A stretch of DNA of 21,449 nucleotides from contig URWR01000010.1 in NCBI GenBank assembly GCA_900551595.1, positions 1 to 21,449 of the forward strand, written 5' to 3'. Origin of the DNA: an uncultured Coriobacteriaceae bacterium. GTDB taxonomy: Bacteria; Actinomycetota; Coriobacteriia; Coriobacteriales; Atopobiaceae. How positions within the stretch are numbered: the first letter of the stretch is position 1; the number at the start of each line of letters is the position of its first letter. Positions 6,205 through 21,449 of this stretch are shown piece by piece. The position numbers and the translations under genes were made by a program. Below the pieces are notes generated by a model. It saw nothing but the letters and a program-made list of their open reading frames with translations, was not told the DNA's origin and made no database searches.

Positions 6205-7200
6205 ATGATTAAGTTTGACGAGCAGAAGCTTCTTGCCGGCTTCCAGGGTGGCATTGATCTGCGCCCGCAGATTGAGGAGATCGTTGACGAAATTTGCGAG
6301 CAGGGATACGACCAGATCTGCTACATGGGCGTTGGCGGTACATGGGCTTCTTCGCTTCAGGCAGAGTCTCACATCCGCGAGTTCTCTGATCTTCCTGTTA
6401 TTGTTGAGCAGGCCGGTCAGTACAATGTAATGCCCAACAAGCGCATTACGAAGGATACCGTCATCGTTATCTCTTCCGTTTCAGGCAACACCGCTGAGAT
6501 GGTCACCGCAATGAAGACCATCAACGAGATCGGTTGCCGTGTCATTGGCTTTATTGACGTTCCTGGTTCTCCTCTCGCTGAGGCTTCCACCTATTGCATT
6601 AGCTATCCTGAGAACGAGCAGCTCAAGTTCTTCATCGTGGGCGATCGCTTCATGAAGAACGCAGGTCAGTTCCCCCAGTATGATGACTTCTATGCTCAGA
6701 TGGATGAGTACTATGCCAAGGACCTCGTAGCTGTCCAGAAGCAGGCTGACGAGTGGGCAAAGGGATATGCTGAGCGTCATCATGACGATCCGATTCATTA
6801 CTTCGTTGCTGCTGGCGAGCAGTGGGGCTCCACGTACTCCTATGCTATGTGCTACTGGGAGGAGCAGCACTGGATCCGCACCAAGTCCATCCATGCTGCC
6901 GAGTTCTTCCACGGCATGTTCGAGGTTGTTGACCGCGACACCAACGTTACCCTGTTCATGGGCGAAGACGCCGAGCGTCCTCTCGCTGAGCGTGTAGCTA
7001 ACTTCCTTCCCAAGATTTGCGGTCGCTACGAGATCATCGACTCCAAGGACTATGACCTTCCTGGCATTAGCTCCGAGTATCGTGGCTATCTGTCCCACCT
7101 CGTCACCCACATGGTAACCGAGCGCATTGACGCACATATCGAGCACATTAACCGTCACCCGATGGATATCCGCCGTTATTATCGTCAGCTCGATTACTAA
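6205..7200 (+). CDS. frlB: FrlB-like SIS-domain deglycase (fructosamine 6-phosphate cleaving)
   Basis: The 331-residue protein has two SIS (sugar isomerase) domains, as in FrlB and GlmS. FrlB cleaves fructoselysine 6-phosphate to glucose 6-phosphate and lysine in the cytoplasm. The sugar-phosphate loops are visible as GVGGTWASS (42-50) and SSVSGNTAE (90-98), and the second domain has HGMFEVV, matching the HGPLEIV segment of FrlB. The C-terminal tail DIRRYYRQLDY closely resembles FrlB's ERRYYGGLVEY and is a good family marker. ATG at 6205 is preferred over 6178 because AAGGAAAGGA lies just upstream. The FrlC-like gene follows and a FrlA-like gene is in the same island, which supports the assignment. 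The amine released may not be lysine. Confidence 0.87.
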   Translation: MIKFDEQKLLAGFQGGIDLRPQIEEIVDEICEQGYDQICYMGVGGTWASSLQAESHIREFSDLPVIVEQAGQYNVMPNKRITKDTVIVISSVSGNTAEMVTAMKTINEIGCRVIGFIDVPGSPLAEASTYCISYPENEQLKFFIVGDRFMKNAGQFPQYDDFYAQMDEYYAKDLVAVQKQADEWAKGYAERHHDDPIHYFVAAGEQWGSTYSYAMCYWEEQHWIRTKSIHAAEFFHGMFEVVDRDTNVTLFMGEDAERPLAERVANFLPKICGRYEIIDSKDYDLPGISSEYRGYLSHLVTHMVTERIDAHIEHINRHPMDIRRYYRQLDY

Positions 7201-7215
7201 GCCATTCCTTCTCCA

Positions 7216-7248
7216 ACGGCCCCGTCAGAGGCGGGGCCGTCCGTATTT
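7216..7248 (+). terminator. Rho-independent terminator after frlB
   Basis: A perfect 9-bp stem ACGGCCCCG/CGGGGCCGT (7216-7224 with 7232-7240) is followed by CCGTATTTT. It begins 16 bases after the frlB stop, so frlB may be transcribed apart from frlC. Confidence 0.8.
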
Positions 7249-7281
7249 TCGTCATACGTTCTGTTTCAGATTGTGTGATAT

Positions 7282-7316
7282 GCACCACTGATTGGTGCAA
7301 GCTTCGCAGATATACG
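7282..7316 (+). promoter_or_regulatory. Putative operator and -10 box upstream of frlC
   Basis: The inverted repeat GCACCA-CTGAT-TGGTGC (7282-7298) overlaps the place where a -35 box would sit for the -10 candidate TATACG (7311-7316). This is the layout of a repressor or activator site. No recognisable -35 box is present, which would fit an activator-dependent promoter. The operator role is inferred only from symmetry and position. Confidence 0.35.
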
Positions 7317-7379
7317 TAGGCTGCCAACTATTTGCCGTGCGGATGACGCGGCACATCATCAGAAAGGATGTGTTGTATC

Positions 7380-8237
7380 GTGTCCAAAATTACTATGCGT
7401 GACGTTTCTGTAATGGGCCCATCCTATGTCCATTTCCCCTTCGAGTACTTCCTCGATTCCCTTCAGGAATGCGGTATTCATAAGGTAGACCTCTGGGGTG
7501 CTGAGCCTTTTTACTATCGTCCGGACTATGCATCGGCAGCTGAGGCAGCAGTTGAGCTCAAGCGCATGAAGGCAGAGATGGAAGCGCGCGATCAGAAGTG
7601 CGTTATCTATACCCCGGAAACCCTTGGGTATCCGTACAATTTCTCCGATCCTCTGCCTCGTTTGACAGATCGTACCGTTGAGTATTTCCGTATGGCAATG
7701 GAAGATGCTCACGTCCTCGATTGCCCGCGCGTTTTCTTGAATTCTGGCTGTGGCCCGCGCAATCAGCCCAAGGAAGAATCCATGAAGCGTCTCGTCGAGA
7801 CCTTCCGTCGCATCGCAGATCTTGCTGAGGATGCAGATATTCTCCTTACGCTTGAGCAGCTCCAGCCCTACGAGAGCAATTTGGTTCTCACCATTGATGA
7901 TGTGAAGCATGTGCTTGACGAGGTTGACTCTCCTAACCTGCGTGTGTGCGTTGACCTTGTCGCTATGGAAGTACAGGGAGAAACACTCGAGCAGTACTTT
8001 GACACCTTTGGTGATAAGGTCGAGTGGATTCACTACTCTGATGCACATCATGAGGTAGTGGGCTCAAGCACCTTTGGTAAGGAGAAGCTTGCTCACTGGA
8101 TTCAGCTTCTGGAGGAGAAAGACTTCCAGAACGGTATTGATCTTGAAGTTAATGACTCAATTTATTGGGAGGATCCGCATACGCCGCATATGGAATCCTG
8201 CCGTTATCTGCGTGAGGAGCTTGGTCTGGAAGATTAA
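7380..8237 (+). CDS. frlC: FrlC-like fructoselysine 3-epimerase (AP-endonuclease-2 TIM barrel)
   Basis: This 285-residue TIM-barrel protein closely resembles E. coli FrlC, which interconverts fructoselysine and psicoselysine. Shared blocks include YTPETLGYPYN (77-87; FrlC has YTPETNGYPYN) and LQPYESN (161-167; FrlC has LTPYESN). The expected metal ligands are E159, D192, H218 and E256. GTG at 7380 is the preferred start because AAAGGA ends 11 bases before it; the in-frame ATG at 7368 overlaps that site and leaves no spacer. The gene lies behind the frlB terminator and an inverted repeat, so it probably has its own promoter. The precise sugar-amine substrate is not determined by the sequence. 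Confidence 0.88.
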   Translation: MSKITMRDVSVMGPSYVHFPFEYFLDSLQECGIHKVDLWGAEPFYYRPDYASAAEAAVELKRMKAEMEARDQKCVIYTPETLGYPYNFSDPLPRLTDRTVEYFRMAMEDAHVLDCPRVFLNSGCGPRNQPKEESMKRLVETFRRIADLAEDADILLTLEQLQPYESNLVLTIDDVKHVLDEVDSPNLRVCVDLVAMEVQGETLEQYFDTFGDKVEWIHYSDAHHEVVGSSTFGKEKLAHWIQLLEEKDFQNGIDLEVNDSIYWEDPHTPHMESCRYLREELGLED

Positions 8238-8378: not shown

Positions 8379-9140
8379 ATGGCACGGACAGCACTGGTAA
8401 CTGGTTATTTGAACGGAATGGGAAAGGGAACGTACGAATCACTTAAAGCACGTGGTTATGACGTTATCGGCTGGGATTACGCTGACGATCCCGCGGTGGC
8501 AGTAGACGTCAGTTCTGTTGAGAGTGTTCGGGCTGGTATTGAGCGCTTTCCTGAGGGCACCAAGCTCGATGCAGTAGCTTTGTGCGCAGGTGTTTGGAGC
8601 GAGGCTCCGTTCATGCAGACGAGCTTTGAAGAGTTCCATCGCCTGGTTGAGATCGATCTTTTCGGCATGTTCAATTGTGTACAGCAGCTCGTTCCTCATA
8701 TGAATGAGCACGGAGCTTTCTGCTGCATTTCGAGCGCTTCTGGCCAGCGCGGTGTGGCCTTTGAGAGCGCCTACAGCGCAGCCAAGTTTGGCATTTGCGG
8801 CTTTGTTGAGGCAGTCGCACGTGAGATCGCAGCAGCCCCCAGGCGCCTGCGCATCAACGCTGTTTGCCCGTTCTATGTAAAGAGCAAGATGACCACCGAT
8901 GCTCTTATCGAGAAGGAGCGCCTGACCGGTATTACGGTTGAGGAAAGCTATGCTCTCGAAGCTCGCGACGTGCCTCTGGGCTATGTAGCAGATCCTTCCG
9001 ATATCGGTGACTTTATCGCCGCTCTGCTCGGACCTGAGAGCCGCTATGTGACCGGTGCTTGCATTCCTATTTCCGGTGGTACGCACTGCGGTTATGGCAA
9101 CCCGCTGTCTTCGTATGACACCGAAGAGTCTTACGATTAA
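8379..9140 (+). CDS. Short-chain dehydrogenase/reductase (SDR)
   Basis: The 253-residue protein is a classical-length SDR with a Rossmann fold that uses NAD(P)H to interconvert a hydroxyl and a carbonyl. The nucleotide loop is TGYLNGMG (8-15), the CAG block is at 69-71, serines are at 118-121 and the catalytic YSAAK is at 132-136. D34 after the second strand (WDYAD) suggests a preference for NAD(H). The C-terminal block GACIPISGG is typical of the family. AGGGAGG upstream supports ATG at 8379. Its place just after frlC suggests that it acts on the sugar part of an Amadori compound or on a breakdown product, but the substrate is unknown. SDR genes are not part of the classical frl operon. Confidence 0.9.
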   Translation: MARTALVTGYLNGMGKGTYESLKARGYDVIGWDYADDPAVAVDVSSVESVRAGIERFPEGTKLDAVALCAGVWSEAPFMQTSFEEFHRLVEIDLFGMFNCVQQLVPHMNEHGAFCCISSASGQRGVAFESAYSAAKFGICGFVEAVAREIAAAPRRLRINAVCPFYVKSKMTTDALIEKERLTGITVEESYALEARDVPLGYVADPSDIGDFIAALLGPESRYVTGACIPISGGTHCGYGNPLSSYDTEESYD

Positions 9141-9260: not shown

Positions 9261-10712
9261 TTATGCGCGCGTGCTCCGCGCGTGATTGTGCCAGAGATAT
9301 AGCGCTGCGAGTATCACAAAATACAGCACTATGAAGGGCCATCTGCCAGGCTGCAGAAGTGAAGACCCTCCAACGAATAGCGAACCAAGTATTGCAAGCG
9401 CAGGCGCTATCCATCCACGGAAAACGCCTGCGCTTCCAGAGCGCCCAAAACTAAAGGCTCTTATGTAGAGCAGAATAAGCGCAAGCATATTGAAGGCAAC
9501 AGCTATTTCTGAAACATCTCCGTTTGGCAAAAGGTTGAGCATCTGAGTGATGCAGTGAAGCAATGATGCAGCTAACAACAGAATGAGAGCTACGGCGCTG
9601 CTTGCAAGAGAGATGGACTTTCCAGAGGTTGCAGCATGGGCAGCTGAAGAGCGAAGCAATGCCTGAGAAAAAGGAATGTCATCTTTGAGTGCAAGAGCGT
9701 GGGGCATGCGCAACAAGGCAAGCAAAACGCCGTTTGCAGAGCCCATAACAGAGACAAGAGCCACTGCATTTGGAATGGTGGCTGCCTGTTTACCAAACAG
9801 CCGGACAAACACTAACGAAAGCGATTCATCGCCGGCAGCAATAACCTGTTGAGGTCCGAGAAAAGCAGAGATACCAACAAAATATGCCAGATAAAGAACG
9901 AGTATAAGAAGTGGTGCTACGGTGAGCGCAAGAGGAAGATTGCGCTTAGAATTACGCAGTTCAGGGGCGATGGATGCTGCTGGGGACCAGCCGTCAAAAG
10001 AGAAGGCAATAGGGGCAGCAGCAGCAAGCCAAGCAAAACTGCTTCCTTGCTCTGCGATAGTGCTTCCTTCTCCCTGAAGCACTGCAGGATTGCCAAAAAC
10101 AATGCCAAGAATGCCTACGGCAATGAGCGGTGTTACTTTGAGAAGGGTTGAGGCGTTTTGGAGCCAGCCAGAAAAACGTGGCCATGCCATATTCCAACCT
10201 ATGCAGAGCACCATAAAAATGATGCCAACAAGTTCTTGGGTGATGAAATCATTACCCCAACCAAAGGTCATGCAAGCATATACGCCAACAACCCAACAGA
10301 GGATAGCACCAATAGATGGCAAATAAATAATTGAGAAAGCCCAGGAAAACAGACGTGCAATAGGAGAGGGAAGAAAGTCTCTCGCATAGGCAATAACACC
10401 ACCTGCTGCATCGCCGCGCTCAGCATAAAGCGATAGGCTCAGTCCACCAAAAATAATGGTGACAGAAGCGATGCAGAACATAGCAACGCCTAATGGCACA
10501 CTACCATGTGTAGCAACAAGCACATTGTCGGCTTTGAAATAAATGCCTGAACCAATGCAGATGCCCATAATCATGCAAAGTGCAGTGAGAAGTGAGTAAC
10601 GCTTAGGTGGATTTGCGGGTGTTTGCAATGTGGTTGGATGTGATTCCGTAGATGTGCATGCAAACTCAACACGATCGTCGCGAGAGGAACGGTCGTTATT
10701 TGCATGGGTCAT
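9261..10712 (-). CDS. APC-superfamily amino acid/amine permease
   Basis: This is a 483-residue integral membrane transporter with about 12 hydrophobic helices after a polar N-terminal tail of about 37 residues. The first helix contains the APC signature GICIGSGIYF, with the small-residue GSG break used for substrate binding. Later blocks such as SFDGWSPAASIAPEL are also typical of the family. ATG at 10712 is chosen because GGAGG lies six bases upstream; an in-frame GTG at 10754 has no such site. It stands alone, converging with the SDR gene and separated from the amidohydrolase by a terminator. It probably imports an amino acid, an amine or a glycated amine. It is clearly different in sequence from the FrlA-like permease in the same island. 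Confidence 0.9.
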   Translation of the reverse strand: MTHANNDRSSRDDRVEFACTSTESHPTTLQTPANPPKRYSLLTALCMIMGICIGSGIYFKADNVLVATHGSVPLGVAMFCIASVTIIFGGLSLSLYAERGDAAGGVIAYARDFLPSPIARLFSWAFSIIYLPSIGAILCWVVGVYACMTFGWGNDFITQELVGIIFMVLCIGWNMAWPRFSGWLQNASTLLKVTPLIAVGILGIVFGNPAVLQGEGSTIAEQGSSFAWLAAAAPIAFSFDGWSPAASIAPELRNSKRNLPLALTVAPLLILVLYLAYFVGISAFLGPQQVIAAGDESLSLVFVRLFGKQAATIPNAVALVSVMGSANGVLLALLRMPHALALKDDIPFSQALLRSSAAHAATSGKSISLASSAVALILLLAASLLHCITQMLNLLPNGDVSEIAVAFNMLALILLYIRAFSFGRSGSAGVFRGWIAPALAILGSLFVGGSSLLQPGRWPFIVLYFVILAALYLWHNHARSTRA

Positions 10713-10727
10713 AAAAAACCTCCGAGC

Positions 10728-10746
10728 GGGGGGGGGATAACGTATA
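10728..10746 (-). promoter_or_regulatory. Nine-G tract and -10 box in front of the APC permease gene
   Basis: Positions 10728-10736 are nine consecutive G on the given strand (C in the mRNA sense). A leftward -10 candidate TATACG lies at 10746-10741 without a good -35 box, which would put the transcription start inside or next to the tract. The ribosome binding site and ATG follow 5-16 bases later. A tract of this length is prone to slippage and could alter transcription start or level. Confidence 0.5.
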
Positions 10747-10842
10747 AGAAGCACTAAACTTTCAGTTTACCGGTATCTTACGTGTTCCATACAAAAGCGC
10801 TGAGCAATACACAAACATGACGTTTTACATGCCGCGTTAGAC

Positions 10843-10894: not shown

Positions 10895-12433
10895 TTACTT
10901 TGTGGCGTCAAATACGATCTTGCCATCAATCATGGTAAGAACGCACTTGCCATCGCGTGCATCCTTGGGATCAATTGCGAGGAAGTTGGTATCAAAGACG
11001 GCAATATCAGCAAGTTTGCCGGCTTCCAAGGTACCAAGAACATCGCACTGCTCGAGGTCATAGGCGCCACCTGCGCACCAAGCGCGAATGAGCTCGCCCG
11101 GTGTAATCATGTTCTGTGTATTCCAGGGTTCTCCACCCTCGGGGAAATAGCCACCGCATGCGCTGTAAACGCCGGTGCCAAGGTCATCGACGGTCATGGG
11201 GAGGTCGGTGCCACAGCCAACGACAACACCGCTATCGATCATCTTGCGACGATTCCAGTAGTGCGTGCCGCGCTCAGCACCAATTTTCTCGTTGACCATT
11301 GCAATCTTGCCTTCACGATCGGCAATAGATTGAATGAGCGGGTATACCTCAGCGACAACGCCAAGCTTGCCCATGCGCTCAAGATCAACGGGGTCTGCGC
11401 CCTCAAGGTCGGTCATTGCTTGACGCAGAACAACCTTGCCGTCCTCGTCGCGCTGGCACTTCTCAAAGATGTCGAGGGCATGTGCGACTGCGCCGTCGCC
11501 CTGGCAGTGCAGAGAGAAGCGCAGACCGGCAGCATCAGCTTCAAGAACCTGGCGCTCATGCTCTGCCCAGTCAATATCCATAGTGCAGCATGTATCTGCA
11601 TCCAGATAGGGCTCCTTCATTTCACCTTCATGCTGTGAAATGGAGCCATCGGTCATCTGGTTAAAGCCAGAGAAGCTAATAAAGGGATCGTCAGCAAAAC
11701 GATCGCGTGTGGCGGTGCCATATGCGATATTGGCGGGCTCTCCAACAGGCTGGCTCATAAGGTTAACGCGCAGGGTAAGCTCGCCAGCATCCTCGAGTTC
11801 CTTTACGGCATCGACAAACCAATAATCGTCGTAGCCCATCTCCTTGGTGGAAGTGACGCCATAGGAGTTCATCATTGCTTCGTACTCGCGATACATGGGT
11901 ACGGAGAACTCGGTATCGGTGATAACTGCTTTGAGGAGCTTATAAGCCTTCTCGCTCCAGCAAGCTGCAGGCGTAAAGCCAAACTTTGTTTCGGCAGCGG
12001 TGTTCATAGCCATGCCATCAGCACACTGACCAACAAAAACAGCCGGAACGTCGCCAAATGCTTCGTCAAGAATCGCTTCGTCTACAGGAAGCATCTCGAG
12101 GGGGAAGTCGTGACCAATTGCAAGTTCGGGCTTAGCGGTGGCGCGAACGCGCTCGATAGCCTCATCTACGCTTGTGACACCAGACAGGTCGGTACCAGCG
12201 CGCTGGAGCAACCAGCCATTAAAGAAGCAGTGAACATCGGTGAGACCTGGTGTTACGAGCTTATCACCAAGTTCCAGTACGCGAGTATTGTCGCCTACAT
12301 ACTCAGCGCCATCGCCTTCGCCTACAGCAATGATCTTGTTACCAGCAACGGCAACAAAACCTGGATGAGCCTCTGTTGTAGTTGCATCAAAGATGTTTTC
12401 CGAGCGAAGAATGTAATCTGCCATCTCTGCCAT
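10895..12433 (-). CDS. YtcJ-like metal-dependent amidohydrolase with altered HxH motif
   Basis: The 512-residue protein has the amidohydrolase layout: a small N-terminal beta domain, a TIM barrel starting at VTPGLTDVHCF (60-70), and a C-terminal return to the beta domain (KLADIAVFD). Such enzymes hydrolyse C-N bonds in amides, N-acyl groups or related compounds. Other family blocks are LHCQGDGAVAHALD in the barrel and GTDLPM near its end, which bring the later His and Asp. The usual HxH pair at the first strand reads H68-C-F70, so the second metal ligand is missing. The ATG at 12433 has a weak GGA eight bases upstream. It is the last gene of an operon with the PfkB kinase and NagB-like genes. 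It might free an amine from an N-acyl or N-glycosyl compound before or after phosphorylation; the substrate is unknown. Confidence 0.85.
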   Translation of the reverse strand: MAEMADYILRSENIFDATTTEAHPGFVAVAGNKIIAVGEGDGAEYVGDNTRVLELGDKLVTPGLTDVHCFFNGWLLQRAGTDLSGVTSVDEAIERVRATAKPELAIGHDFPLEMLPVDEAILDEAFGDVPAVFVGQCADGMAMNTAAETKFGFTPAACWSEKAYKLLKAVITDTEFSVPMYREYEAMMNSYGVTSTKEMGYDDYWFVDAVKELEDAGELTLRVNLMSQPVGEPANIAYGTATRDRFADDPFISFSGFNQMTDGSISQHEGEMKEPYLDADTCCTMDIDWAEHERQVLEADAAGLRFSLHCQGDGAVAHALDIFEKCQRDEDGKVVLRQAMTDLEGADPVDLERMGKLGVVAEVYPLIQSIADREGKIAMVNEKIGAERGTHYWNRRKMIDSGVVVGCGTDLPMTVDDLGTGVYSACGGYFPEGGEPWNTQNMITPGELIRAWCAGGAYDLEQCDVLGTLEAGKLADIAVFDTNFLAIDPKDARDGKCVLTMIDGKIVFDATK

Positions 12434-12475: not shown

Positions 12476-13417
12476 TTATTCATCAAGCGTGCTGATAAAT
12501 GCCTCAACCTCTTCACGCGGACGATAGGCCGGAATGGTCCCATCGATGGTGACTGAGAGAGCGGCATACTTGCTTGCCCAGGTCATAGCCTCTTCAAGGG
12601 ATTTGCCCCAGACGAGACCTGCAACGGTGGAAGCCATGAAGCCGTCACCAGCGCCAGCAGTGTTTACAACCTTGTCCACGTGGGTGGGGGCTACCGTAAT
12701 AAATTCTCCGTCGGCAGTGAGTGCGCAGGAGCCCTCATCGCCGAGTGTCATAACAACACAGCCAACGTGATAAGTATCAATAACGCGCTGTGCAAGGGCC
12801 TTATGGTCAATCTCTGCGTCGGGATCAACGCCCTCGATATAGCGGCCCTCAACCTCGTTGATGAAGAGGTAATCCACATAGGAAAGGTCTCCCATAGGCT
12901 CTTCAGGCAGCGGGCTCGGATTGAGTGCGACCGTCATGCCAAGCTCTTTAGCGTGACGTGCTCCTGCCAGCGAAACTGCCATGGGTACCTCAAAGCCGGT
13001 TACAAAGTAACAGCTGCCTGCCATAGCGTCGAGAGCGTCAATAACTTCCTGCTCAGTGAGCATGACGCTGGAAGAATCGCCATCGATAATGGTGTTCTGG
13101 CCATCTGGGCCAATAAGGATAAGGCCGGTGCCAGTGGCAACTTCATCAGTGCGATACAGATAGGTGGTATCTGCTCCAGCCTCGCGCATCCAGCGCTCTC
13201 CGAGGTCGCCCCAAGGGTCATTGCCGACCTTGCCGATATAGGCAACATCAAGTCCCAAACGTCCCAGAGCAACAGCAACATTGGAACCCTTGCCGCCGTC
13301 TTCGGCGATATGCCATTTCTTTACAGGAAGCGTTTCTCCCCAAACAGGCATATGGTCACAGTAGGCATACTGGCCTACGCCGTGGCTGTTCAGTACGATG
13401 ACGTCCTTTGCCGACAT
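12476..13417 (-). CDS. PfkB/ribokinase-family sugar kinase
   Basis: The 313-residue protein phosphorylates a sugar or sugar conjugate with ATP. Family marks are GGKGSNVAVALGRLG (41-55) in the sugar-binding region and NTAGAGDGF (252-260) in the C-terminal anion-hole motif; D258 is the expected catalytic base. The usual DTxGAGD begins with Asn here (N252), a mild oddity. In frl operons the kinase FrlD belongs to this family, so this is the best candidate for phosphorylating the glycated amine. However, the sequence looks more like ribokinase than FrlD, which has a shorter N-terminal region. It begins three bases after the NagB-like stop codon and 42 bases separate it from the amidohydrolase, so the three are co-transcribed. 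Confidence 0.9.
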   Translation of the reverse strand: MSAKDVIVLNSHGVGQYAYCDHMPVWGETLPVKKWHIAEDGGKGSNVAVALGRLGLDVAYIGKVGNDPWGDLGERWMREAGADTTYLYRTDEVATGTGLILIGPDGQNTIIDGDSSSVMLTEQEVIDALDAMAGSCYFVTGFEVPMAVSLAGARHAKELGMTVALNPSPLPEEPMGDLSYVDYLFINEVEGRYIEGVDPDAEIDHKALAQRVIDTYHVGCVVMTLGDEGSCALTADGEFITVAPTHVDKVVNTAGAGDGFMASTVAGLVWGKSLEEAMTWASKYAALSVTIDGTIPAYRPREEVEAFISTLDE

Positions 13418-13420
13418 GGT

Positions 13421-14317
13421 TTACCAGCCCTTCTGATCGTGAGACATCGGATGATCGATGGTGTATTCAGTGGTGTAAAGCGTTACATCGGGGATGTACT
13501 TCGGAAGAATGGTAACGGGGTACTCTGTGGTGGGATCGCTGAAGAGAAGAACGCGGCAAACAGTCTTCTTCCAGTCGCCGGTAGCTACCATGTAGACGGC
13601 ACGCTTAGCGGAGCAAATAATATGGAAACCAATGGTCAGACCCATAGGAGGAACGCGGTCAAGGCAGGTGCCAAATGAGCGCTCAGCCATGGCAACCATG
13701 GTGTCAGAGTTGATAACAACAACGCGCGTGCGAGAATCGGCATACTCTTCAACGGTGGGACGATAGCAGAAGTTGCGCGGCTCTTCATCAAAAGCAACGA
13801 GGCCAGTGGCGCCAATGCCTGCCCAGACCGTGTCAACGCCGCCCAGCTCGTCGCACATGCGATCGGCGTAGTCCAGATCGGACATACGAGGCCAAATACG
13901 ATGATCCTCAGGAGGACGAAGCTCCTCATCAATGCGGTTGTAGAAGCAAGCGAGCATGGTGCCCTCAAGGCTCTCATAGGTATCGGCTACCGGGTAAGGG
14001 CGGCTCTGCCAATCGAGGAATTCGTCCATGTGGAAGACCCAGAGGTTCTTGCAGTCAATGCGCTCCTCATTAACGCGACGAATGAAGGTGTCGTACTCAT
14101 CGCATGGTCCAGCAGGGAGAACCCACTTTGTGGGAAGGCCCTGAGCGTTGTGCTCCTTAACCTCATCGGCCATAAGATTGCCGATTTCTTCCATCATTGT
14201 TGCGCGGTCCTTGCGCACAGCAAGCTTGCACTTAAGATCGTCGCGATCCTCAAGCTCCTGCCAGGGGATAGAGCACCACTCATAAATCTCTGAGGTGGTA
14301 AGTCGGTTCATTAACAT
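13421..14317 (-). CDS. NagB-family (glucosamine-6-phosphate deaminase-like) protein lacking two catalytic residues
   Basis: The 298-residue protein has the NagB/6-phosphogluconolactonase fold. NagB turns glucosamine 6-phosphate into fructose 6-phosphate and ammonia. Recognisable blocks are LPAGPCDEYDTF (67-78, phosphate loop), FHMDEF (95-100, with the enolization Asp at D98), GIGATGLVAFDE (167-178) and PPMGLTIG (223-230). In E. coli NagB the third block reads GVGNDGHIAFNE, where D141 and H143 open the ring. Here these positions are T171 and L173; the E148 equivalent (E178) remains. Normal NagB chemistry on a closed-ring substrate is therefore doubtful. ATG at 14317 is preferred over 14335 because AGAAGG precedes it by seven bases. 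It is the first gene of the operon with the PfkB kinase and the amidohydrolase. It may act on an open-chain or Amadori-type substrate. Confidence 0.85.
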   Translation of the reverse strand: MLMNRLTTSEIYEWCSIPWQELEDRDDLKCKLAVRKDRATMMEEIGNLMADEVKEHNAQGLPTKWVLPAGPCDEYDTFIRRVNEERIDCKNLWVFHMDEFLDWQSRPYPVADTYESLEGTMLACFYNRIDEELRPPEDHRIWPRMSDLDYADRMCDELGGVDTVWAGIGATGLVAFDEEPRNFCYRPTVEEYADSRTRVVVINSDTMVAMAERSFGTCLDRVPPMGLTIGFHIICSAKRAVYMVATGDWKKTVCRVLLFSDPTTEYPVTILPKYIPDVTLYTTEYTIDHPMSHDQKGW

Positions 14318-14392
14318 TGCAATACCTTCTTTCATGGTTGATGAAACGGCATCGTACGACCAGAGAAGAAACTAAAAGTTGGCAACATGCCA

Positions 14393-14522: not shown

Positions 14523-15958
14523 TTAGCTAGCCACACGCTCGCTGATCTCGGCGTTACGGCGCTCCTCAGCTGCCTGGATGATGTCAGCGTTGACCTTCCT
14601 CCAGTGGAAGAAGAACGGTACAGCGGAGACGACGATGAGGATGCCGGCCGTGATCGGGTTGAAGCTGAACAGCGGGGTCTCGCCGGAGATGAGGCCAGAG
14701 AGGCTGTCAGACATGAGGATCAGGGACGGAACGATGGCGAGAACTGCCATGACCGGGCCACCAGGAGCCTTGAAGGTCGGATGGTAGTTGGCCTTCTTCT
14801 GCAGTGGGAACCAAGCGCAGAACAGGAGCGCATTGCGGAGCAGGCAGATGAAGGTGAACAGGCTCAGCAGGTCCTGAATGGAGGAAGCCCAAACGAGGAT
14901 GAGAGCGAAGCCGGACTGCCAAAGCATCGAAATGACAGGAGAGTCATACTTGGGGTCAATCTTGCCCCAGGAACGCCACCAGTAGCCTTCCTGAGCAGCC
15001 TTCATCTCGCCGCGTGCCTGGAACATGATGAGCGAGGAGAGAGAGCCGGTTACGACGATAACGGCAAGAACAGCAGCGATGTTGCCAGCCATGGTGCCAA
15101 GGCCAGGAATGTGGGAGAAGGCCTCAGCGACGGAAGCATCGGAAGCTGCGAGGGTGGAGATATCAACCAAACCAACGGAAGCGGTGGAAAGGCCGGTGTA
15201 GAGCAGCGTTACAACGAGAACGCAGCCGATAAGAGCAATGGGCATGTTCTTCTCGGGGTTCTTGATTTCGCCGCCCATGGTGACGGAGGTCTGCATGCCG
15301 TCGTAGCTCCAGGTGGTGGCAGCAATGCCAGCAATAAGAGCGGTTACGGGGCTTGCAGCAGAGCCCTCAACAGCAGGGGCAGAGAAGTTGGCACCATTGA
15401 CGAAGAACAGACCAACAAGAACCAGGATCAGGAACGGTGCGATCTTAACGGCAGTAATGAACGACTGCCACTTGGCGCCTGCGTGCTTGTGGCACATGTG
15501 CAGCCAGGTGAAGAAGACGATCAGGATGCAGCCAACAATGTGAACCGTAAGATCGGTCCAGCCAGTGAAGTAGGCAAGATAGTTGGCAAGCGTAAGAGTC
15601 ATCGTGGCGATGCCGACGGGGTCAGTTGCCCACCAGCATGACCAGATGAAGAACATTGCCATGAATGGCCAGCCGGCCTCACGGAAGTAAACGAACTGTC
15701 CGCCGTCCTCAGAATATGCTGTGGAATACTCAGCATAAATAAGGTTCTGCGGAATCATAATGAGACCACCGATGAGGAACGCCAAGATGGTAAAGAGTGG
15801 CGTTCCGGCGGCTGCGGCTACACCTCCCGACCGGGGGAATAAGTTAAGTTGCCGGAACCGACGGTGGTTCCGACGCCGAGTGCGATGGCGGTGCCAAGAC
15901 CAAGGTGGCGTTCAAGTTGGCCTTCCTGCGGCGCCGTCGTTGCCGGAGTATCGGACAT
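14523..15958 (-). pseudogene. frlA: FrlA-like APC permease, frameshifted near the N-terminus
   Basis: The gene would encode a 12-helix importer of fructoselysine/psicoselysine type, like E. coli FrlA. The long frame reads AFLIGGLIMIPQNLIYAEYS, close to FrlA's AFVIGGLIVIPQMCVYAELS, and resemblance continues for most of its length. The true start is ATG at 15958, with GGGGAG just upstream. This first frame runs 46 codons (including GVGTTVGSG of the first helix) to an in-frame TAG at 15820-15818. The conserved sequence then resumes two bases out of frame as AAAAGTPLFTILAFLIGG. The break falls after SPGREV, where FrlA-type proteins read GEVAKAAGTP, as if TA had been added. A GGGGG run lies at 15833-15837, so a sequencing or assembly error is possible. 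If real, the first helix and the rest are not made as one protein unless frameshifting or a restart rescues them. Confidence 0.82.
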
Positions 15959-16303
15959 GTTCTCCCCTTTCCATACAACGTGTGGTTCTGCTTGCGTGGT
16001 GCCCCGCGGACGTGGTCCCCTGCCTGGAATACGTGTTCGAGTGGCACCAAAACCAATGAAACTGAAGATTACAGTAATGGATTAAAACACCACTTAACTT
16101 ATCTAATCGGTGAAAGGTATCCTGTGGAAACCTGAAAATTGGTATACATTTATGTGAAAAGAACGTGTAACTGCTGTTAAGAATATGTGGAGACTACAAA
16201 ACTTCTTTGTCAACGTAGTTTTCACTCTTTCCGCTCAGCGCAGCATCAAACTTTGCGACAAGTGGATGTTTGTGCCAGAGGTGTTTATCTTCCGTCAGTT
16301 GCC
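15959..16303. other. Intergenic region upstream of frlA with possible regulatory sites
   Basis: No gene is supported here. The frlA ribosome binding site GGGGAG lies at 15962-15967 on the minus strand. A separated inverted repeat TGGTGCC (15997-16003) and GGCACCA (16043-16049) could fold or bind a regulator. AAATTGGTAT at 16136-16145 also occurs at 5957-5966 upstream of frlB. The stretch from about 16060 is AT-rich, unlike the flanking genes. Confidence 0.4.
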
Positions 16304-16429
16304 ATGCGCTTATTTGGAAAAATGGCAGCAGATACATTAGGATTATCAGATATAGGAAAAATAATATCACCTAAGGATTTTGATAAAGTTGATGGTGATG
16401 ATTACATAATGAAAACACGCGATCGGTAA
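16304..16429 (+). pseudogene. Remnant of a YvbH-like bacterial PH-domain gene (N-terminal 36 codons)
   Basis: From ATG at 16304 the frame reads MRLFGKMAADTLGLSDIG and then KIISPKDFDKVDGDDYIM. This is very close to the N-terminal pattern of small bacterial PH-domain proteins (Pfam bPH_1, YvbH type), which normally run about 120 residues or more. The match ends at KT, and three unrelated codons lead to a TAA at 16427-16429. There is no good ribosome binding site. The DNA is AT-rich compared with its neighbours, which suggests transfer from a low-GC source. The frame extends open upstream to a GTG at 16187, but that part has no family resemblance. Its 3' end overlaps the end of the opposite SIS gene, placing the breakpoint at about 16411-16421. 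Confidence 0.7.
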
Positions 16430-17285
16430 CGAGTCGAGTTGCATCAACCAATTGACGGCACCTTTCGTGGTCGCGTATGCCTATCGACATAAAGAAGATG
16501 GTGTATTCGGGAGAAATTTGCAGATTGGGCCCATGGAGATATTCCTCGAGCTCAAAGCCAACTGCCGGGATTTGGAGCGTTTCTCCGTATTTAAGAGCGC
16601 CTTCACAGGCAACACCATAGTTTGCCCCGGCGCCTACCAACATCACACGCTCCATTGAGGAGAGTTCCTTATAACGCGCGTCAATGATGGCGGGAACTTG
16701 TATAGTGGCTTGTTCAAAACGGGTGATAATTTGCTCTAGCTTGGCATACTCGGCTTCAACACCGGCCTCATCCAGACGTCCTTCTCGCTGTGCAACGCCA
16801 ATGCCAAAGAGTGCCAAGAAAAAGGCAAATGAGGTAACGCCTTTTGTGACGTAACCAACAAGCTCTTCACCTACGCCGTAATCAACGAGAATGTCTGCGG
16901 CATCTTTGAAGTCACTTGAAGGATCGCCGGTGAGTCCAATAGCTGGACGCCCGGCAGCACGAATGGTCTCTAAGGCAGCTAGTGCATTGGTTGAATAGCC
17001 ACTCTGCGAAACAACAAAGCAGAACTCATCGTCGGGAAGTTCATGCTCATAGGCGCAAAACGTATAGGGCTCGGTGATAATAACTTCTCGCTGGAGCATA
17101 TGGCGCAGATAATGACGGCCAACGAGCGATCCATTGCGGGAGCTTCCGCAGGCCACAATGCGTACACGGCGGTATGAACCAGCGCAAAATGCCTCTACAA
17201 GTGGAGCGGCAACATCGTTGGCAATTTGCGAGCGCAATACTTCGGGGGTTTGTTTAACGTAGTCGACCATGGTTGGACGAGACAT
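16371..17285 (-). CDS. SIS-domain sugar isomerase/deglycase, C-terminally truncated
   Basis: The 304-residue protein belongs to the GlmS-type two-SIS-domain group that includes FrlB, FraB and the Gfr deglycases. Sugar-phosphate loops are ACGSSRNGS (45-53) and SQSGYST (93-99), and the second domain has FELEEYLHGP (HGP at 251-253). After TDRV (287-290) the resemblance stops. The last 14 residues are encoded on the reverse of the PH-domain remnant and look accidental. The intact neighbouring SIS protein (19572-20675) continues about 60 residues beyond this point, covering the last helices and the C-terminal tail that closes the active site in GlmS-type enzymes. Function is therefore probably lost or impaired. 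The start at 17285 is strong, with AAGGAGC six bases upstream. It is the last gene of the leftward SIS-ROK-SIS operon, 44 bases after the ROK gene. Confidence 0.85.
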   Translation of the reverse strand: MSRPTMVDYVKQTPEVLRSQIANDVAAPLVEAFCAGSYRRVRIVACGSSRNGSLVGRHYLRHMLQREVIITEPYTFCAYEHELPDDEFCFVVSQSGYSTNALAALETIRAAGRPAIGLTGDPSSDFKDAADILVDYGVGEELVGYVTKGVTSFAFFLALFGIGVAQREGRLDEAGVEAEYAKLEQIITRFEQATIQVPAIIDARYKELSSMERVMLVGAGANYGVACEGALKYGETLQIPAVGFELEEYLHGPNLQISPEYTIFFMSIGIRDHERCRQLVDATRLVTDRVFSLCNHHHQLYQNP

Positions 17286-17329: not shown

Positions 17330-18256
17330 TTAGCTTGCGAAGAGTGAAGCAGCGCCAATAATGCCGGAGTCCTCTTTAAGCGTGGTGAGCAATACGTCGG
17401 TGTGTTGACCTTCGTATACCTCTGCAACCAATGCCTTCTGTATGTGCTCAATCCAAGGCCCAAGGGCGTGAGCTACGCCGCCTGCCAACACGATGGCGTC
17501 GGGACAATAGATGTAGACGTAGCTATTAAGGGCTCGACAAAGCATGGAGATATACCACTGCACGATCTCTTGAGCTTGTTTATCACCAGCTTGAGCACGC
17601 TGGAACAGCACTTCATTGGTGGCATTTTCTCCCAGCTTGTCATGCACCAGCTTGGCAAGTGAGGTGCCAGAGCAAGTGGATTCAAAGCAGCCTGTTTGTC
17701 CGCAATAGCAGGGCTCACTATCCAAGCAGGCAAACTCGTTGCCAGTTCGGACTAAGATATGGCCAGCTAAATGCATGGATGAGTCGGCACCAACAGGGCG
17801 TTTGTCTTCAACCAATCCAACACCAATGCCTGTGCCGAGGGTAAGAACAAGCACGCGGTGGTAAGGCGCTCCCACACCCGAAACTGCCTCTGCCAGGGCG
17901 ATGAGTCGAGCATCGTTGTCTACACGGGCAGGCAGCTTGAGGCATTCGGATATTTTTGCCCCAAGTGGATAGCCATGCGTGAGGAACGGCACAAATGAAG
18001 ACATGCCATCTATGGAGCCATCGGCAAACACATAGCTGCCAATAGAAACACCGACAGCATGAGGTTGGCCAACCTGTGCCGCCTGTTTTGATACGAGATC
18101 GGAAATAGTGGCGAAAAAGGCGGCTTCCTCACGGGGCGTGGGCGCGACATCCGAAGAAAGAACTTCATGGGTGGCTACGTTATATATTCCGCATTTAATG
18201 CGCGTACCACCAATATCGAGACCTACCACAAGGTTTTGATCTGTGGGTGTACTCAT
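17330..18256 (-). CDS. ROK-family sugar kinase with intact zinc motif
   Basis: The 308-residue protein is a ROK kinase that phosphorylates a hexose, amino sugar or related compound with ATP. It shows DIGGTRIK (14-21) for phosphate binding, VDNDA (112-116) with catalytic D115, GTGIGVGLV (141-149), zinc ligand H166 and the cysteine motif CYCGQTGCFE (183-192). No DNA-binding domain precedes the kinase, so it is an enzyme rather than a NagC/Mlc-type repressor. The ATG at 18256 overlaps the upstream SIS stop codon as ATGA, which argues for this start over an in-frame GTG at 18268 and indicates translational coupling. With SIS partners on both sides, it probably supplies the 6-phosphorylated substrate that the deglycases need; the substrate is not known. 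Confidence 0.93.
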   Translation of the reverse strand: MSTPTDQNLVVGLDIGGTRIKCGIYNVATHEVLSSDVAPTPREEAAFFATISDLVSKQAAQVGQPHAVGVSIGSYVFADGSIDGMSSFVPFLTHGYPLGAKISECLKLPARVDNDARLIALAEAVSGVGAPYHRVLVLTLGTGIGVGLVEDKRPVGADSSMHLAGHILVRTGNEFACLDSEPCYCGQTGCFESTCSGTSLAKLVHDKLGENATNEVLFQRAQAGDKQAQEIVQWYISMLCRALNSYVYIYCPDAIVLAGGVAHALGPWIEHIQKALVAEVYEGQHTDVLLTTLKEDSGIIGAASLFAS

Positions 18257-19338
18257 TGTACGATCCACCCCTCTTCAAAGAACATGCCGGGCTCAATGTT
18301 GTTGGCGATGGCACATTGATATGAGAGAAGCTGGAAGTACAGTGCCTGTACAAGCATCATATGTGCGCCATCAAGCTCCAAATCTGGAAGCTCAACATAT
18401 ACCGTGGCATCCATATCTGAGCCAGCGGGACCGATGTAGATGTTTTCGGGCTGTGCCTGTGTGATGTAGTTCCAGATCATGCGAGAACGGTCGTCTCCCA
18501 AAACATCAAGCAGCACGGGTACCGTCTTTGATTTTGTAATCTTTTGAGCGCGAATGAGCTCCATGGGACCGTGATAGAAATTATCGAGTGACATAACATT
18601 TGCTGGCACTTTGGCAGTTTCTTCCAGCCACAGCGATGCGCTGCGCATCATGTTGATGCCCTGTGCACGAGAGAGCATGTAGAAGCTATCGGCGCTGTCA
18701 AGGAAAGGAATCTGTTCTATAGCGCACAGCCAGTTCTTCTTGTTCTCTTCCATCCAATCAAAAGCAGCATGGAGGCGTGCAACGTAGGTGGGATCTGGCT
18801 CATCATGATCCATCATGTGAGCAACAAAAAGTCCGCAAAGTGCCATTGAGCTGTAGGCTTTGATGCAAACGATTTTGTCGTAGCTTGCTATGTCGTGCAG
18901 CATGACGGTGCAGTGCTGGCCCATGGTTGAGGTGGGGGTCATGGTAATAGCTACCGAGGTGTAACCATGCTCGGTGAGCCATACAGAAAAGTCAGCAACC
19001 TCACGACTTTCTCCAGAGCGCGACATCAGAATATAGAGTGCATGTTTGCTTACGCGCTCGGGATGGTGGATAAGCTCGGCGGTTTCTACCAGCGTGACAT
19101 TGCGCATGCCGCGGTCGAGAAGTGCCTCGTACATAGGCATAAGCGAGTAGAGTGCACTGCCCATAGAAGTGAGAACAATCTCACTGGCCAAATTTGCAAG
19201 GCGTGCAACCTCTTTTACCGTTTCCAGGCGATCTGTCGTGAGATCGTTGAGTACACGATGAAGTTCCTCGGGTTGCTGATAGATGTTTTCCAAAATGGGA
19301 TTTATGGTTGCGCTGTCTTGTGTGGTTTCTTCTGCCAT
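18253..19338 (-). CDS. SIS-domain sugar isomerase/deglycase
   Basis: The 361-residue protein is a full-length GlmS-like double SIS protein without the glutaminase domain. Sugar-phosphate binding is seen in LTSMGSALYS and in MSRSGESREVA of the first domain, and the second domain carries YHGPMEL. The C-terminus ends in a helix and a short tail, as expected for a complete enzyme. It is the first gene of the leftward operon, with GGAGG seven bases ahead of the ATG, and its stop overlaps the ROK kinase start. Members of this group cleave phosphorylated Amadori products (FrlB, FraB, GfrE/GfrF) or isomerize amino-sugar phosphates (AgaS, GlmS). The neighbourhood favours a deglycase. Confidence 0.88.
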   Translation of the reverse strand: MAEETTQDSATINPILENIYQQPEELHRVLNDLTTDRLETVKEVARLANLASEIVLTSMGSALYSLMPMYEALLDRGMRNVTLVETAELIHHPERVSKHALYILMSRSGESREVADFSVWLTEHGYTSVAITMTPTSTMGQHCTVMLHDIASYDKIVCIKAYSSMALCGLFVAHMMDHDEPDPTYVARLHAAFDWMEENKKNWLCAIEQIPFLDSADSFYMLSRAQGINMMRSASLWLEETAKVPANVMSLDNFYHGPMELIRAQKITKSKTVPVLLDVLGDDRSRMIWNYITQAQPENIYIGPAGSDMDATVYVELPDLELDGAHMMLVQALYFQLLSYQCAIANNIEPGMFFEEGWIVQ

Positions 19339-19400: not shown

Positions 19401-19420
19401 AACAATGGACATAACTTGTT
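19401..19420. promoter_or_regulatory. Possible operator in the divergent SIS promoter region
   Basis: AACAA (19401-19405) and TTGTT (19416-19420) form an inverted repeat with a 10-base spacer. It lies around the predicted start point of the leftward promoter, a usual place for a repressor site. Evidence is symmetry and position only. Confidence 0.3.
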
Positions 19421-19423
19421 TGG

Positions 19424-19453
19424 AAAGTACCATCAGTTCTGTGTCTCTGTCAA
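19424..19453 (-). promoter_or_regulatory. Putative promoter of the SIS-ROK-SIS operon
   Basis: Read leftward, a perfect TTGACA (19453-19448) is followed after 18 bases by TACTTT (19429-19424). The leader would be about 80 bases. No clear rightward promoter for the gene at 19572 could be picked out by eye. Confidence 0.55.
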
Positions 19454-19571
19454 AAGAGCAAGCTGAGCAAAATAGTGCCTTTGAAGTGCGCAAATGCTGT
19501 TTATGAGGCGTTTTTACTTAGCGGTATGGTAGGAGGCTTTCGCCGAACGGCAAGGCAAGAAAGGAAGGGTT

Positions 19572-20675
19572 ATGTCTTATCCGGAAGCAATGGCACGTGA
19601 GATTGATCAGCAGTCTGAACTGCTACAAGAGCTTTGGGATACCGAGGAAGAGTGGACTAAACCGTTTGTAGAGTTGTGCAAAACGCATAACTTCAAGCGC
19701 CTGCTGTTTGTAGGTAATGGCTCACCATACTATGCCGGGTGTGCACTTCGTTTTGCAGCTGAGCACCTCTTGAAGGTAAATGCAGAATCTGTTCCAGCTG
19801 CTATTTTCAACAATCATGCAACTTTCGATGCTTCGGGCTCGATTGATCCATCCGAAATGCTGCTGGTATGTCCCGCAGAGACTGGCCATTCAAAAGGCCA
19901 GGTTGATGCAGCGCGCAAAGCACGGGCACTGGGCATTCCCGTGGTATGCACCACGCTTAACCCCACCGGCGTACTCGCCCGTGAGTGCGATGTAGTCTTA
20001 GCGAAGCCAGGTGGCCCAGAATATGCCGTTGCATCCACAAAGAATCAGACCATGGCGTTGTTCTTGGTGCTGTGCTGCTTTGTTGAGGGCGGCTATGCAC
20101 AGGGCAACATCACCGAGGAAGAATATAAATCCCTGCGAGAGGCGCTTGCTGCAGTACCACAAAATGTTGGTCGTACCGTAGAGCTCTCCCGTGCATGGTT
20201 TGAGGCAAATGAGCAGCGTCTGATGAATGCGCCGGCTTTCTTCCTTATTGGCTATGGTTCAAACTATGGCACCGTCCAGGAAGGTGCGCTCAAGTTTTAC
20301 GAGACGCACGAGCGTCCGACCTATGCGTTTGAGCTCGAAGAGACACTGCATGGTCCCTTCCGTGCGCTTCACAGCGATGACGTCTGCCTCTTCTTGGCGG
20401 CAGAAGCTGGCGAGGAGCGCGATCGTATGCTGCGTCTGGCAGAGGCTGCAGAGCCTTACTGCAAGAATCGCGTGCTCATTCAGAATGAGAAGCTCGATGC
20501 TGTAGGGGATGCCCTGCCCATCGCAACAAGCGACGTTCCGTATGTCGACGTTATCGAGTACCTGATTCCGATGCAGGTTATTGCTGAGCGCATGAGCGAC
20601 CGTTTGGGAATTGACCTTTCAGAGCCCAAGGTTGCTTCGCTTGATCCGGTTATGCTTCCGGCTTACGAGGATTAG
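19572..20675 (+). CDS. SIS-domain sugar isomerase/deglycase
   Basis: The 367-residue protein is a complete double-SIS enzyme of the GlmS/FrlB group. The first phosphate loop reads GNGSPYYAG (49-57), close to the GSGSSYYA type, and the second reads PAETGHS instead of the usual SxSGxT. EYAVASTKNQT resembles the GlmS block EIGVASTKAYT, and the second domain has FELEETLHGP. GGAAGGG before the ATG supports the start. It is divergent from the leftward SIS operon across a 233-base control region and is followed nine bases later by a second ROK kinase. It likely cleaves a phosphorylated glycated amine. Confidence 0.9.
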   Translation: MSYPEAMAREIDQQSELLQELWDTEEEWTKPFVELCKTHNFKRLLFVGNGSPYYAGCALRFAAEHLLKVNAESVPAAIFNNHATFDASGSIDPSEMLLVCPAETGHSKGQVDAARKARALGIPVVCTTLNPTGVLARECDVVLAKPGGPEYAVASTKNQTMALFLVLCCFVEGGYAQGNITEEEYKSLREALAAVPQNVGRTVELSRAWFEANEQRLMNAPAFFLIGYGSNYGTVQEGALKFYETHERPTYAFELEETLHGPFRALHSDDVCLFLAAEAGEERDRMLRLAEAAEPYCKNRVLIQNEKLDAVGDALPIATSDVPYVDVIEYLIPMQVIAERMSDRLGIDLSEPKVASLDPVMLPAYED

Positions 20676-20684
20676 GGGGTTGCT

Positions 20685-21449
20685 ATGGCCGAAAAAAGTG
20701 TGGTTGCTGCAGAGCAAGAAATTCCTGCTGATGCAACGATTCTTACGGCCGATATTGGCGGCTCAAAGTTCATGGTTGGCTTTGTTTCAGCTGCTGGAGA
20801 AGTGCTCTGTGTTGAGCGCTATGAATGGCTCAATCCTACCGCCGAAGAAATTCTCGATAAGGTGGAATCGGCCCTCCGAGCTCAACTTGAAGCCCACCCC
20901 GATTTGGCAGCTCGCGTTATTGCGGGAGGCCTCACAATTCCGGGTCTTGCTGAGCCAGTAAAAGGTGTATGGCTAGATTCAGATTTCCCACCCATTCGTG
21001 ACCTGCATATTTGCGAGGAACTTTCTGAGCGACTTGGCATTCCATTTTATGGCGACAACGATGGAAACGCTTGTGTGTTGGCCGAGGGCTATTTTGGAAG
21101 TGCCCGCGGAGCAAGCGATTTTATCTATATAACCGTAAGCTCTGGTGTAGGTGGCGGCGCTTGTGTAGGTGGAGAGCTTTTCTATGGAGCTCACTGTGAA
21201 TCGGGCGAGATTGGTCTGACCATCTGCGAGCAGGGTGGACGTCCTTCTCGCTCTGGAAAACAGCACGGACCACTCGAGATGTATTGCTGCACAGAGGGTA
21301 TGTCTCAAACATTCATAGAGCTTGGCGGTCCCAGCGAGGTTGATGGGCACACGCCTGGCGGAAAAGAAATTGCTGCCTGTGCAGAAAAGGGCAATGAGGC
21401 TGCTTTGCGCACAATTGAGCTGGAAGGCAAGCGTTTAGGCCGTGCCATT
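20685..21449 (+). CDS. ROK-family kinase lacking the zinc motif (3' end outside window)
   Basis: The first 255 residues are visible. After a 16-residue polar extension, TADIGGSKFMVGFV (21-34) matches the ROK phosphate loop, GDNDGNA (123-129) holds catalytic D126, and SSGVGGGACVGGELFYG (152-168) and ESGEIG (172-177) are typical ROK blocks. The zinc site is gone: the His normally after GEIG is L178, and the CxCGxxGCxE region is replaced by SRSGKQHGPLEMYCC. This makes the protein unlike its partner at 17330-18256, although fold and catalytic residue remain. GGGGG lies five bases before the ATG, and the gene starts nine bases after the SIS stop, so the two are an operon. It is probably a kinase; a sugar-sensing role without a DNA-binding domain seems less likely. 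Confidence 0.88.
   Translation, partial: MAEKSVVAAEQEIPADATILTADIGGSKFMVGFVSAAGEVLCVERYEWLNPTAEEILDKVESALRAQLEAHPDLAARVIAGGLTIPGLAEPVKGVWLDSDFPPIRDLHICEELSERLGIPFYGDNDGNACVLAEGYFGSARGASDFIYITVSSGVGGGACVGGELFYGAHCESGEIGLTICEQGGRPSRSGKQHGPLEMYCCTEGMSQTFIELGGPSEVDGHTPGGKEIAACAEKGNEAALRTIELEGKRLGRAI

Follow-up and report, generated by a model that had tools for sequence, protein, structure and literature searches.

Do the clustered sugar-isomerase-like, kinase and permease genes of an uncultured Coriobacteriaceae bacterium represent a catabolic system for glycated amines that goes beyond the known frl, fra and gfr operons? Heating of food yields glycated amino acids that reach the gut; both the bacteria that use them and the enzymes involved are only partly known. 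We pursued this question in contig URWR01000010.1 (assembly GCA_900551595.1), of which the whole analyzed stretch of 21,449 nucleotides is termed the window; its nearest named relatives are Olsenella-like. Positions 6205-21449, here called the island, were studied through their open reading frames and scans with Pfam and NCBIfam-type family models. The island genes FrlB1, FrlC, YtcJ, PfkB, NagB-like, FrlA, SIS2, ROK1, SIS3, SIS4 and ROK2 quite probably form a locus that breaks down several glycated amino compounds; we regard it as a real, expanded variant of the known glycated-amine pathways with predicted substrates. An expanded island of this kind had been proposed in a sequence-only reading of the same DNA. 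The proposal stands in so far as the genes recur with frl-type FrlC and FrlD proteins in Olsenella porci and include deglycases of the GfrF and GfrE types; it does not stand for an SDR oxidoreductase and a second APC permease, which had been counted among the parts.

Every gene class claimed earlier (FrlA-, FrlB- and FrlC-like genes, a YtcJ-like amidohydrolase, an SDR, a NagB-like gene, a second APC permease, three more SIS genes and two ROK kinases) was found in its place. The island opens on the forward strand with FrlB1 (6205-7200; Pfam SIS), by its tree position a predicted SIS deglycase of the GfrF, or fructoselysine-6-phosphate, branch, and with an FrlC-like gene (7368-8237; Pfam AP_endonuc_2) for a predicted TIM-barrel sugar-amine 3-epimerase. 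On the reverse strand lie the YtcJ-type amidohydrolase (10895-12433; Pfam Amidohydro_3, E-value 3.7e-42), a PfkB sugar kinase (12476-13417; Pfam PfkB), which is predicted to phosphorylate the imported sugar-amine at C6, the NagB-like gene (13421-14335), whose likely start, judging from the starts of its relatives, is at 14317, and an interrupted FrlA-like APC permease (14523-15958, with an open frame at 14523-15785), recognized by its match to E. coli FrlA. The PfkB gene, 3 bp from the NagB-like gene, is an addition to the earlier gene list. Further along the same strand are SIS2 (16197-17285, with an open frame at 16371-17285), a predicted SIS deglycase of the GfrE, or glucoselysine-6-phosphate, branch according to the tree and tblastn matches, ROK1 (17330-18268; Pfam ROK) and SIS3 (18253-19338; Pfam SIS). 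The forward strand then carries the GlmS-like SIS4 (19572-20675; Pfam SIS, tree) and ROK2 (20685-21449; Pfam ROK), which is truncated by the window end. Successive open frames from YtcJ through PfkB and NagB-like to FrlA are separated by 42, 3 and 187 bp, SIS2 and ROK1 by 44 bp, and SIS4 and ROK2 by 9 bp, while ROK1 and SIS3 overlap by 16 bp. This short spacing suggests three operons: YtcJ-PfkB-NagB-like-FrlA, SIS2-ROK1-SIS3 and SIS4-ROK2.

With the frl proteins of E. coli K-12 (locus L029 of our collection) as reference, the likeness to the classical fructoselysine system is modest: window FrlA is 37% identical to E. coli FrlA over 408 residues, FrlC 28% identical to FrlC, PfkB 25% to FrlD and FrlB1 22% to FrlB. 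The earlier recognition of FrlA-, FrlB- and FrlC-like genes was correct as to their presence; the likeness to E. coli frl is weak for FrlB, FrlC and PfkB/FrlD. The FrlC-like protein retains in alignment the putative metal-ligand residues, to which we presume the ligand role applies. PfkB reaches 176 bits against the ribokinase model (cut-off 300). No relative of FrlR, encoded in E. coli frlABCDR, was found in the window at 1e-8. We dismissed the label of an E. coli-type frl operon for the window, since the curated cut-offs are missed; from the window alone the Amadori assignment would be a guess, and the Amadori reading relies on relatives.

The anchor is a locus of O. porci (L063). Past SIS3 it continues with genes of the dihydrodipicolinate synthase (DHDPS) and DUF4432 families, FrlC2 and PfkB2. 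Next come two FrlD proteins, which score 388 and 394 bits where the cut-off is 247, and one FrlC, whose 474 bits exceed a cut-off of 305. The locus also holds an Amidohydro_2 protein, two GntR/UTRA regulators, a kinase of the FGGY family and a BtpA-family protein. The island shares with the frl operon an FrlA-type permease, an FrlC-type epimerase, a PfkB kinase and a SIS deglycase, and in the O. porci block FrlC and FrlD above curated cut-offs; it differs in that FrlB1 belongs to the GfrF branch and in the added SIS, ROK, NagB-like and YtcJ genes. Fructoselysine use by Collinsella intestinalis was reportedly described by Wolf et al. in 2019. As Collinsella spp. are among the genera with frlD hits in the excerpted text of PMC9749803, frl genes in this bacterial class are, on that account, not new.

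The expectation that the genes are conserved together in relatives was borne out both by shared blocks and by co-occurrence. The same set of FrlB1, FrlC, FrlA, NagB-like, PfkB, YtcJ, SIS4, ROK2, SIS2, ROK1 and SIS3 occupies about 14 kb in O. porci, in Olegusella massiliensis and in Coriobacteriales OH1046, where the frame caller missed ROK1 but two ROK genes were counted by tblastn. In loci L001-L003 and L060-L062, FrlB1/FrlC are separated from FrlA by an esterase gene. Part of the set extends to Lachnospiraceae: loci L010-L012, from Lachnospiraceae and Oscillospiraceae, have FrlA, NagB-like, PfkB, SIS4, ROK2, SIS3 and ROK1, followed by DHDPS, DUF4432, FrlC2 and PfkB2. A profile built from 30 NagB-like proteins retrieved 28 loci from the genome collection, of which 25 with at least 49% identity were kept, some of them short contigs; L026-L028, at 28% or less, were excluded before counting. 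Of these 25 loci, 24 have a PfkB-type gene, and in 21 it comes immediately after the NagB-like gene. The remaining partners, each out of 25, are DHDPS (18), FrlC-type (17), FrlA-type (16), DUF4432 (15), any SIS (12), ROK (10), FGGY (7), BtpA (5) and YtcJ (4).

Co-occurrence was counted across 140 genomes from the family to which O. porci (G001) belongs, with orthologues defined by at least 60% identity. FrlB1 has orthologues in 12 genomes, SIS3 in 11 (one of them a fragment at a contig edge), NagB-like in 10 and YtcJ in 7; all SIS3 (11/11), NagB-like (10/10) and YtcJ (7/7) genomes fall among the 12 FrlB1 genomes, and SIS3 and NagB-like orthologues occur together in 9. Hypergeometric p-values, which ignore kinship, are 1.8e-15 for SIS3, 1.2e-13 for NagB-like and 4e-9 for YtcJ, and range from 1.8e-15 to 1.2e-5 over all tests; the co-occurrence of the island genes exceeds chance. 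Among 398 genomes sampled from the phylum of the Lachnospiraceae genome G006, SIS3 at 60% or more was found in one, G006 itself, and is hence rare in that phylum. Judged from listings of open-licence PMC papers, no description of the gene combination was found.

The SIS proteins connect the island with a second known system. SIS proteins in plasmid records are up to 60% identical to FrlB1, and in four such records from Enterococcus and Liquorilactobacillus an FrlB1-like SIS protein (54-60%) lies beside genes of the phosphotransferase system (PTS). We identified gfr-like operons by a sigma-54 regulator, PTS IIB, IIC and IID and two SIS genes; two of the four records have all of these, with a hypothetical protein in the place of IIA and the SIS genes in the would-be gfrE-gfrF order. 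In the excerpted text of PMC12675984, gfrE cleaves glucoselysine-6-phosphate and gfrF fructoselysine-6-phosphate, the reverse of one figure legend there; the excerpted PMC12136445 likewise assigns glucoselysine-6-phosphate to gfrE. In a tree of 26 SIS proteins, in which GlmS and E. coli FrlB form long branches, FrlB1 clusters with the GfrF-position protein (support 100/100; 54% identity to that of E. raffinosus) and SIS2 with the GfrE-position protein (support 95/90; 31% identity to that of E. raffinosus). SIS2 furthermore shares 44% identity with the second SIS protein encoded in a PTS operon of E. faecium. The equivalents of GlmS E488 and H504, which we take to be its catalytic Glu/His pair, are kept in each of the four SIS proteins of the window and in the eight comparison rows. 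An equivalent of GlmS K485 is present in SIS2, SIS4 and the GfrE-position protein and missing from FrlB1, GfrF, FrlB and SIS3, a distribution in keeping with a division of the substrates into 2-amino-aldoses and fructosamines, and no proof of it.

Hence the contention that the island lies beyond gfr is half right, as FrlB1 and SIS2 are related to gfr-type deglycases. Like the gfr operon of Salmonella and its gfr-like counterparts in Enterococcus, the island has both deglycase branches, FrlB1 with the GfrF and SIS2 with the GfrE position. Unlike them, it shows kinases of the ROK and PfkB families and a permease of the APC family in place of a PTS and a sigma-54 regulator: scans of the window proteins gave neither a mannose-family PTS nor such a regulator, and neither is among the genes labelled in the O. 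porci block, in a view that omits unmatched frames shorter than 150 residues.

The NagB-like protein had no Pfam match. Its AlphaFold model (pLDDT 87.1, pTM 0.87) finds NagB structures as its top PDB matches, the first with a TMq of 0.70 and 20% identity. Relative to E. coli NagB, all 30 aligned members retain D72, E148, R172 and K208, and in all 30 D141 is replaced by T, K or N and H143 by L. We take Asp72 to be the catalytic base of NagB, Arg172 and Lys208 to bind phosphate, and Asp141 and His143 to serve ring opening. Ordinary glucosamine-6-phosphate deaminase identity was dismissed on account of the D141/H143 replacements. The family thus shares with NagB deaminase the fold and the Asp72, Glu148, Arg172 and Lys208 positions, and differs from it in the lost Asp141/His143 dyad and in the PfkB-type kinase gene of 24 out of 25 loci. 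On its simplest reading, from residues and model, it would be a phosphosugar enzyme that needs no ring opening. A bolder proposal, speculative and on present evidence rather unlikely, is that it is a fructosamine-6-phosphate deglycase on the NagB rather than the SIS fold and that the ROK/SIS pairs add a PTS-free Heyns route. With the dyad gone and the base and the phosphate clamp kept, such a deglycase would take 6-phosphorylated Amadori compounds, supplied by the adjacent PfkB kinase, in their open-chain keto form. Among the 140 family genomes, 14 have a second group of NagB-like proteins (30-35% identical; L040-L053), whose short flanks gave no match to the reference genes.

The YtcJ-type amidohydrolase is likewise unusual. 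The window protein and 12 relatives (13/13) have H-x-F at the metal motif where 3icj has H-L-H; H-x-H near the N-terminus is presumably the typical YtcJ/Amidohydro_3 motif. H-x-F is also found in a YtcJ-like protein of E. faecium DO plasmid 2 (L100), 39% identical to that of the window. Here, FrlA-like, FrlD, FrlB1-type SIS, YtcJ-like and Amidohydro_2 genes lie within about 8 kb, with two GntR genes: the FrlA-like protein is 54% identical to E. coli FrlA, FrlD scores 296 bits (cut-off 247), the SIS protein is 51% identical to FrlB1, and the Amidohydro_2 protein shares 62% identity with its counterpart in the O. porci block. This fructoselysine-type operon shares those five components with our loci and differs in having a single SIS gene and, in 17 kb, no annotated NagB-like or ROK gene. 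In the annotation table, frlD is the only frl name given to this stretch. Eight genomes of the O. porci family have YtcJ paralogues (44-47%) no more than about 2 kb away from FrlB-like genes, and all six of these second-type loci that were fetched contain YtcJ, FrlB-like, FrlD-like and GntR-like genes. The one scanned, L073, also has a DcuC-family carrier and an Amidohydro_2 gene. According to the excerpted text of PMC4072780, fra comprises a C4-dicarboxylate transporter and an asparaginase with a kinase and a deglycase, and L073 with its DcuC-type carrier recalls that operon. As in the fructose-asparagine (fra) operon of Salmonella, so far as that text describes it, an amide-hydrolysing enzyme would stand beside kinase and deglycase, with L073 adding the DcuC carrier and a GntR gene; the island, judged by gene type, differs from fra in having a YtcJ-type amidohydrolase, not an asparaginase. 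We infer an amide-opening role for YtcJ.

What is observed directly is the gene content, the synteny, the tree positions and the retention of catalytic residues; from these a scheme of substrates, step order, kinase-deglycase pairing and YtcJ and NagB-like roles can be sketched. The FrlA-type permease would import glycated amino compounds, some of which would have an amide opened by YtcJ. In the cytoplasm, kinases would then phosphorylate the sugar at C6, and deglycases would split the phosphorylated conjugate into a hexose phosphate and the free amine. A fructosamine (Amadori) branch is predicted to employ PfkB, FrlC and the GfrF-type FrlB1, with the NagB-like protein in a further step; a 2-amino-aldose (Heyns) branch, for example for glucoselysine, is predicted to employ ROK1 and the GfrE-type SIS2, with a ROK kinase in place of the PTS of gfr. 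SIS4 with ROK2, and SIS3, may serve further substrates. The earlier reading had suggested that N-acyl or oxidised conjugates might also be handled, which is conjectural. If this scheme is true, a single locus would encode four SIS proteins and a NagB-fold candidate, against the one or two deglycases of the operons known so far, Heyns products would gain a kinase-based route, and a YtcJ subfamily would enter glycated-amine catabolism; the YtcJ and NagB-like families could then serve as markers for such pathways in metagenomes. Candidates for new biochemistry are the NagB-like protein, the SIS3 and SIS4 clades, the ROK kinases paired with SIS genes, and the YtcJ subfamily with its altered metal motif.

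Two genes of the island are interrupted. Alignment of intact relatives to the window splits FrlA over two frames, with a frameshift near 15842; an intact FrlA of 475 residues (P0241) is 99% identical to the window fragment, so that intact copies exist. SIS2 has an in-frame stop at 16371-16373, and in tblastn its relatives match the same single frame from 17285 to 16197 across it, which rules out a frameshift as the reason for its shortness.

Several observations weigh against a glycated-amine locus. These interruptions may reflect a decaying locus in this organism or a faulty assembly. The window proteins fall below all NCBIfam frl cut-offs, with 59 of 430 bits for FrlB1, 116.5 of 305 for FrlC (NF007360), 61 of 247 for PfkB and 287 of 800 for FrlA (NF008466, scored as its open frame); FrlC and FrlD of equivalog level sit in relatives, outside the window, and the identity of FrlB1 to E. 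coli FrlB is low. Even in the E. faecium plasmid operon, the FrlA-like protein reaches 532 bits (cut-off 800) and the SIS protein 43 (FrlB cut-off 430), and the proteins of L073 score 87 of 430 (FrlB-like), 114 of 305 (FrlC-like) and 175 and 234 of 247 (FrlD-like). The gfrE and gfrF labels on the Enterococcus proteins denote operon position only, SIS3 and SIS4 stand alone in clades with no characterized member in the compared set, and no aligned row has an equivalent of GlmS K603. Furthermore, the gene set is modular: G053 and G055 carry FrlB1, SIS3, YtcJ and FrlA with no NagB-like gene, G045 has NagB-like, PfkB, FrlA and FrlB1 with no SIS/ROK part, and 5 of the 12 FrlB1 genomes have no YtcJ orthologue. 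Finally, DHDPS, DUF4432, FGGY and BtpA near the relatives are ill-suited to a simple kinase-deglycase scheme.

Could the island instead serve mainly the catabolism of amino sugars such as glucosamine, N-acetyl-hexosamines and mannosamine, with ROK kinases phosphorylating, YtcJ deacylating and GlmS/NagB-like proteins deaminating? Below cut-off, SIS2 and SIS4 do match GlmS and NagB-II models, and ROK1 matches fructokinase and N-acetylglucosamine kinase models, and the NagB fold of the NagB-like protein would suit such a role. Yet neither a NagA-type deacetylase nor an amino-sugar PTS is present among the scanned window proteins, the NagB-like family has lost H143 throughout, the O. porci block holds FrlC and FrlD at equivalog level, and SIS2 clusters with the GfrE-position protein and not with GlmS, itself a long branch. 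We consider the amino-sugar explanation improbable. We would give equally little credence to the idea that other imported conjugates (opine-like compounds or N-glycosides) are degraded by recruited FrlC/FrlD relatives through an aldolase route of DHDPS, DUF4432, PfkB2, FGGY and BtpA, for which the frequency of DHDPS, DUF4432, FGGY and BtpA at NagB-like loci speaks, as do the Schiff-base lysine and Tyr133 of the DHDPS-family proteins (9/9 and 8/9), though with Thr44/Thr45 absent (9/9), and against which stand the FrlA- and FrlC-type genes at most of the same loci, Chloroflexi loci with FrlC relatives 60-61% and FrlA relatives 52% identical to those of E. coli, and the absence of all its genes from the window.

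Catabolism of glycated amino compounds thus remains our preferred reading, with a smaller membership than was first proposed. The SDR oxidoreductase (8379-9140, forward strand; Pfam adh_short_C2), probably an accessory neighbour, and the second APC amino-acid permease, APC2 (9261-10754, reverse strand; Pfam AA_permease_2), were dismissed as core parts for want of conservation with the island. Among the matches listed, best first, for the 140 family genomes, no relative of the SDR exceeds 37% identity; APC2 has none above 53%, and its 49-53% relatives lie in 10 of these genomes, none of them FrlB1 carriers. Neither gene was labelled in any of the 25 related loci. In six relatives' loci (L001-L003, L060-L062), FrlB1 is preceded by another SDR that shares 24% identity with the window protein, so that an oxidoreductase may still have a role.

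Some further features of the relatives and of the window deserve mention. The DHDPS-family proteins linked to the NagB-like gene (L009:2208-3113 and eight relatives) have Lys161, presumably the Schiff-base lysine, in 9/9 and Tyr133 in 8/9; since the Thr44/Thr45 pair is missing in 9/9, they are perhaps not pyruvate-dependent aldolases, if the residue roles are as we assume. FGGY kinase and BtpA genes lie near island relatives in L063 (17190-19606), L011, L019, L020, L022, L023, L060, L061 and L065, and in Neobacillus bataviensis (L018:5421-6578) a saccharopine-dehydrogenase-like gene lies beside the NagB-like and PfkB genes. ROK1 has the DND and CxCGxxGCxE motifs; the CxCGxxGC zinc motif was not found in the part of ROK2 within the window. 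Seven ROK2 relatives are 443-466 residues long with a C-terminal extension, which in L002:14585-15922 and L010:13022-14422 well exceeds 100 residues and by eye resembles a second, partial ROK C-terminal part. To the left of the island, an FtsX-like permease, a tRNA-Phe and an ABC-F protein are taken as host background. The tRNA-Phe (4063-4138), the sole Rfam match at the gathering threshold, adjoins the ABC-F gene (4229-5719, reverse strand), whose best model is a ribosomal-protection-like ABC-F (296 bits, cut-off 380). The FtsX-type permease (222-3878, forward strand) is 1218 residues long, and a long stretch of it matches coiled-coil (SMC-like) models.

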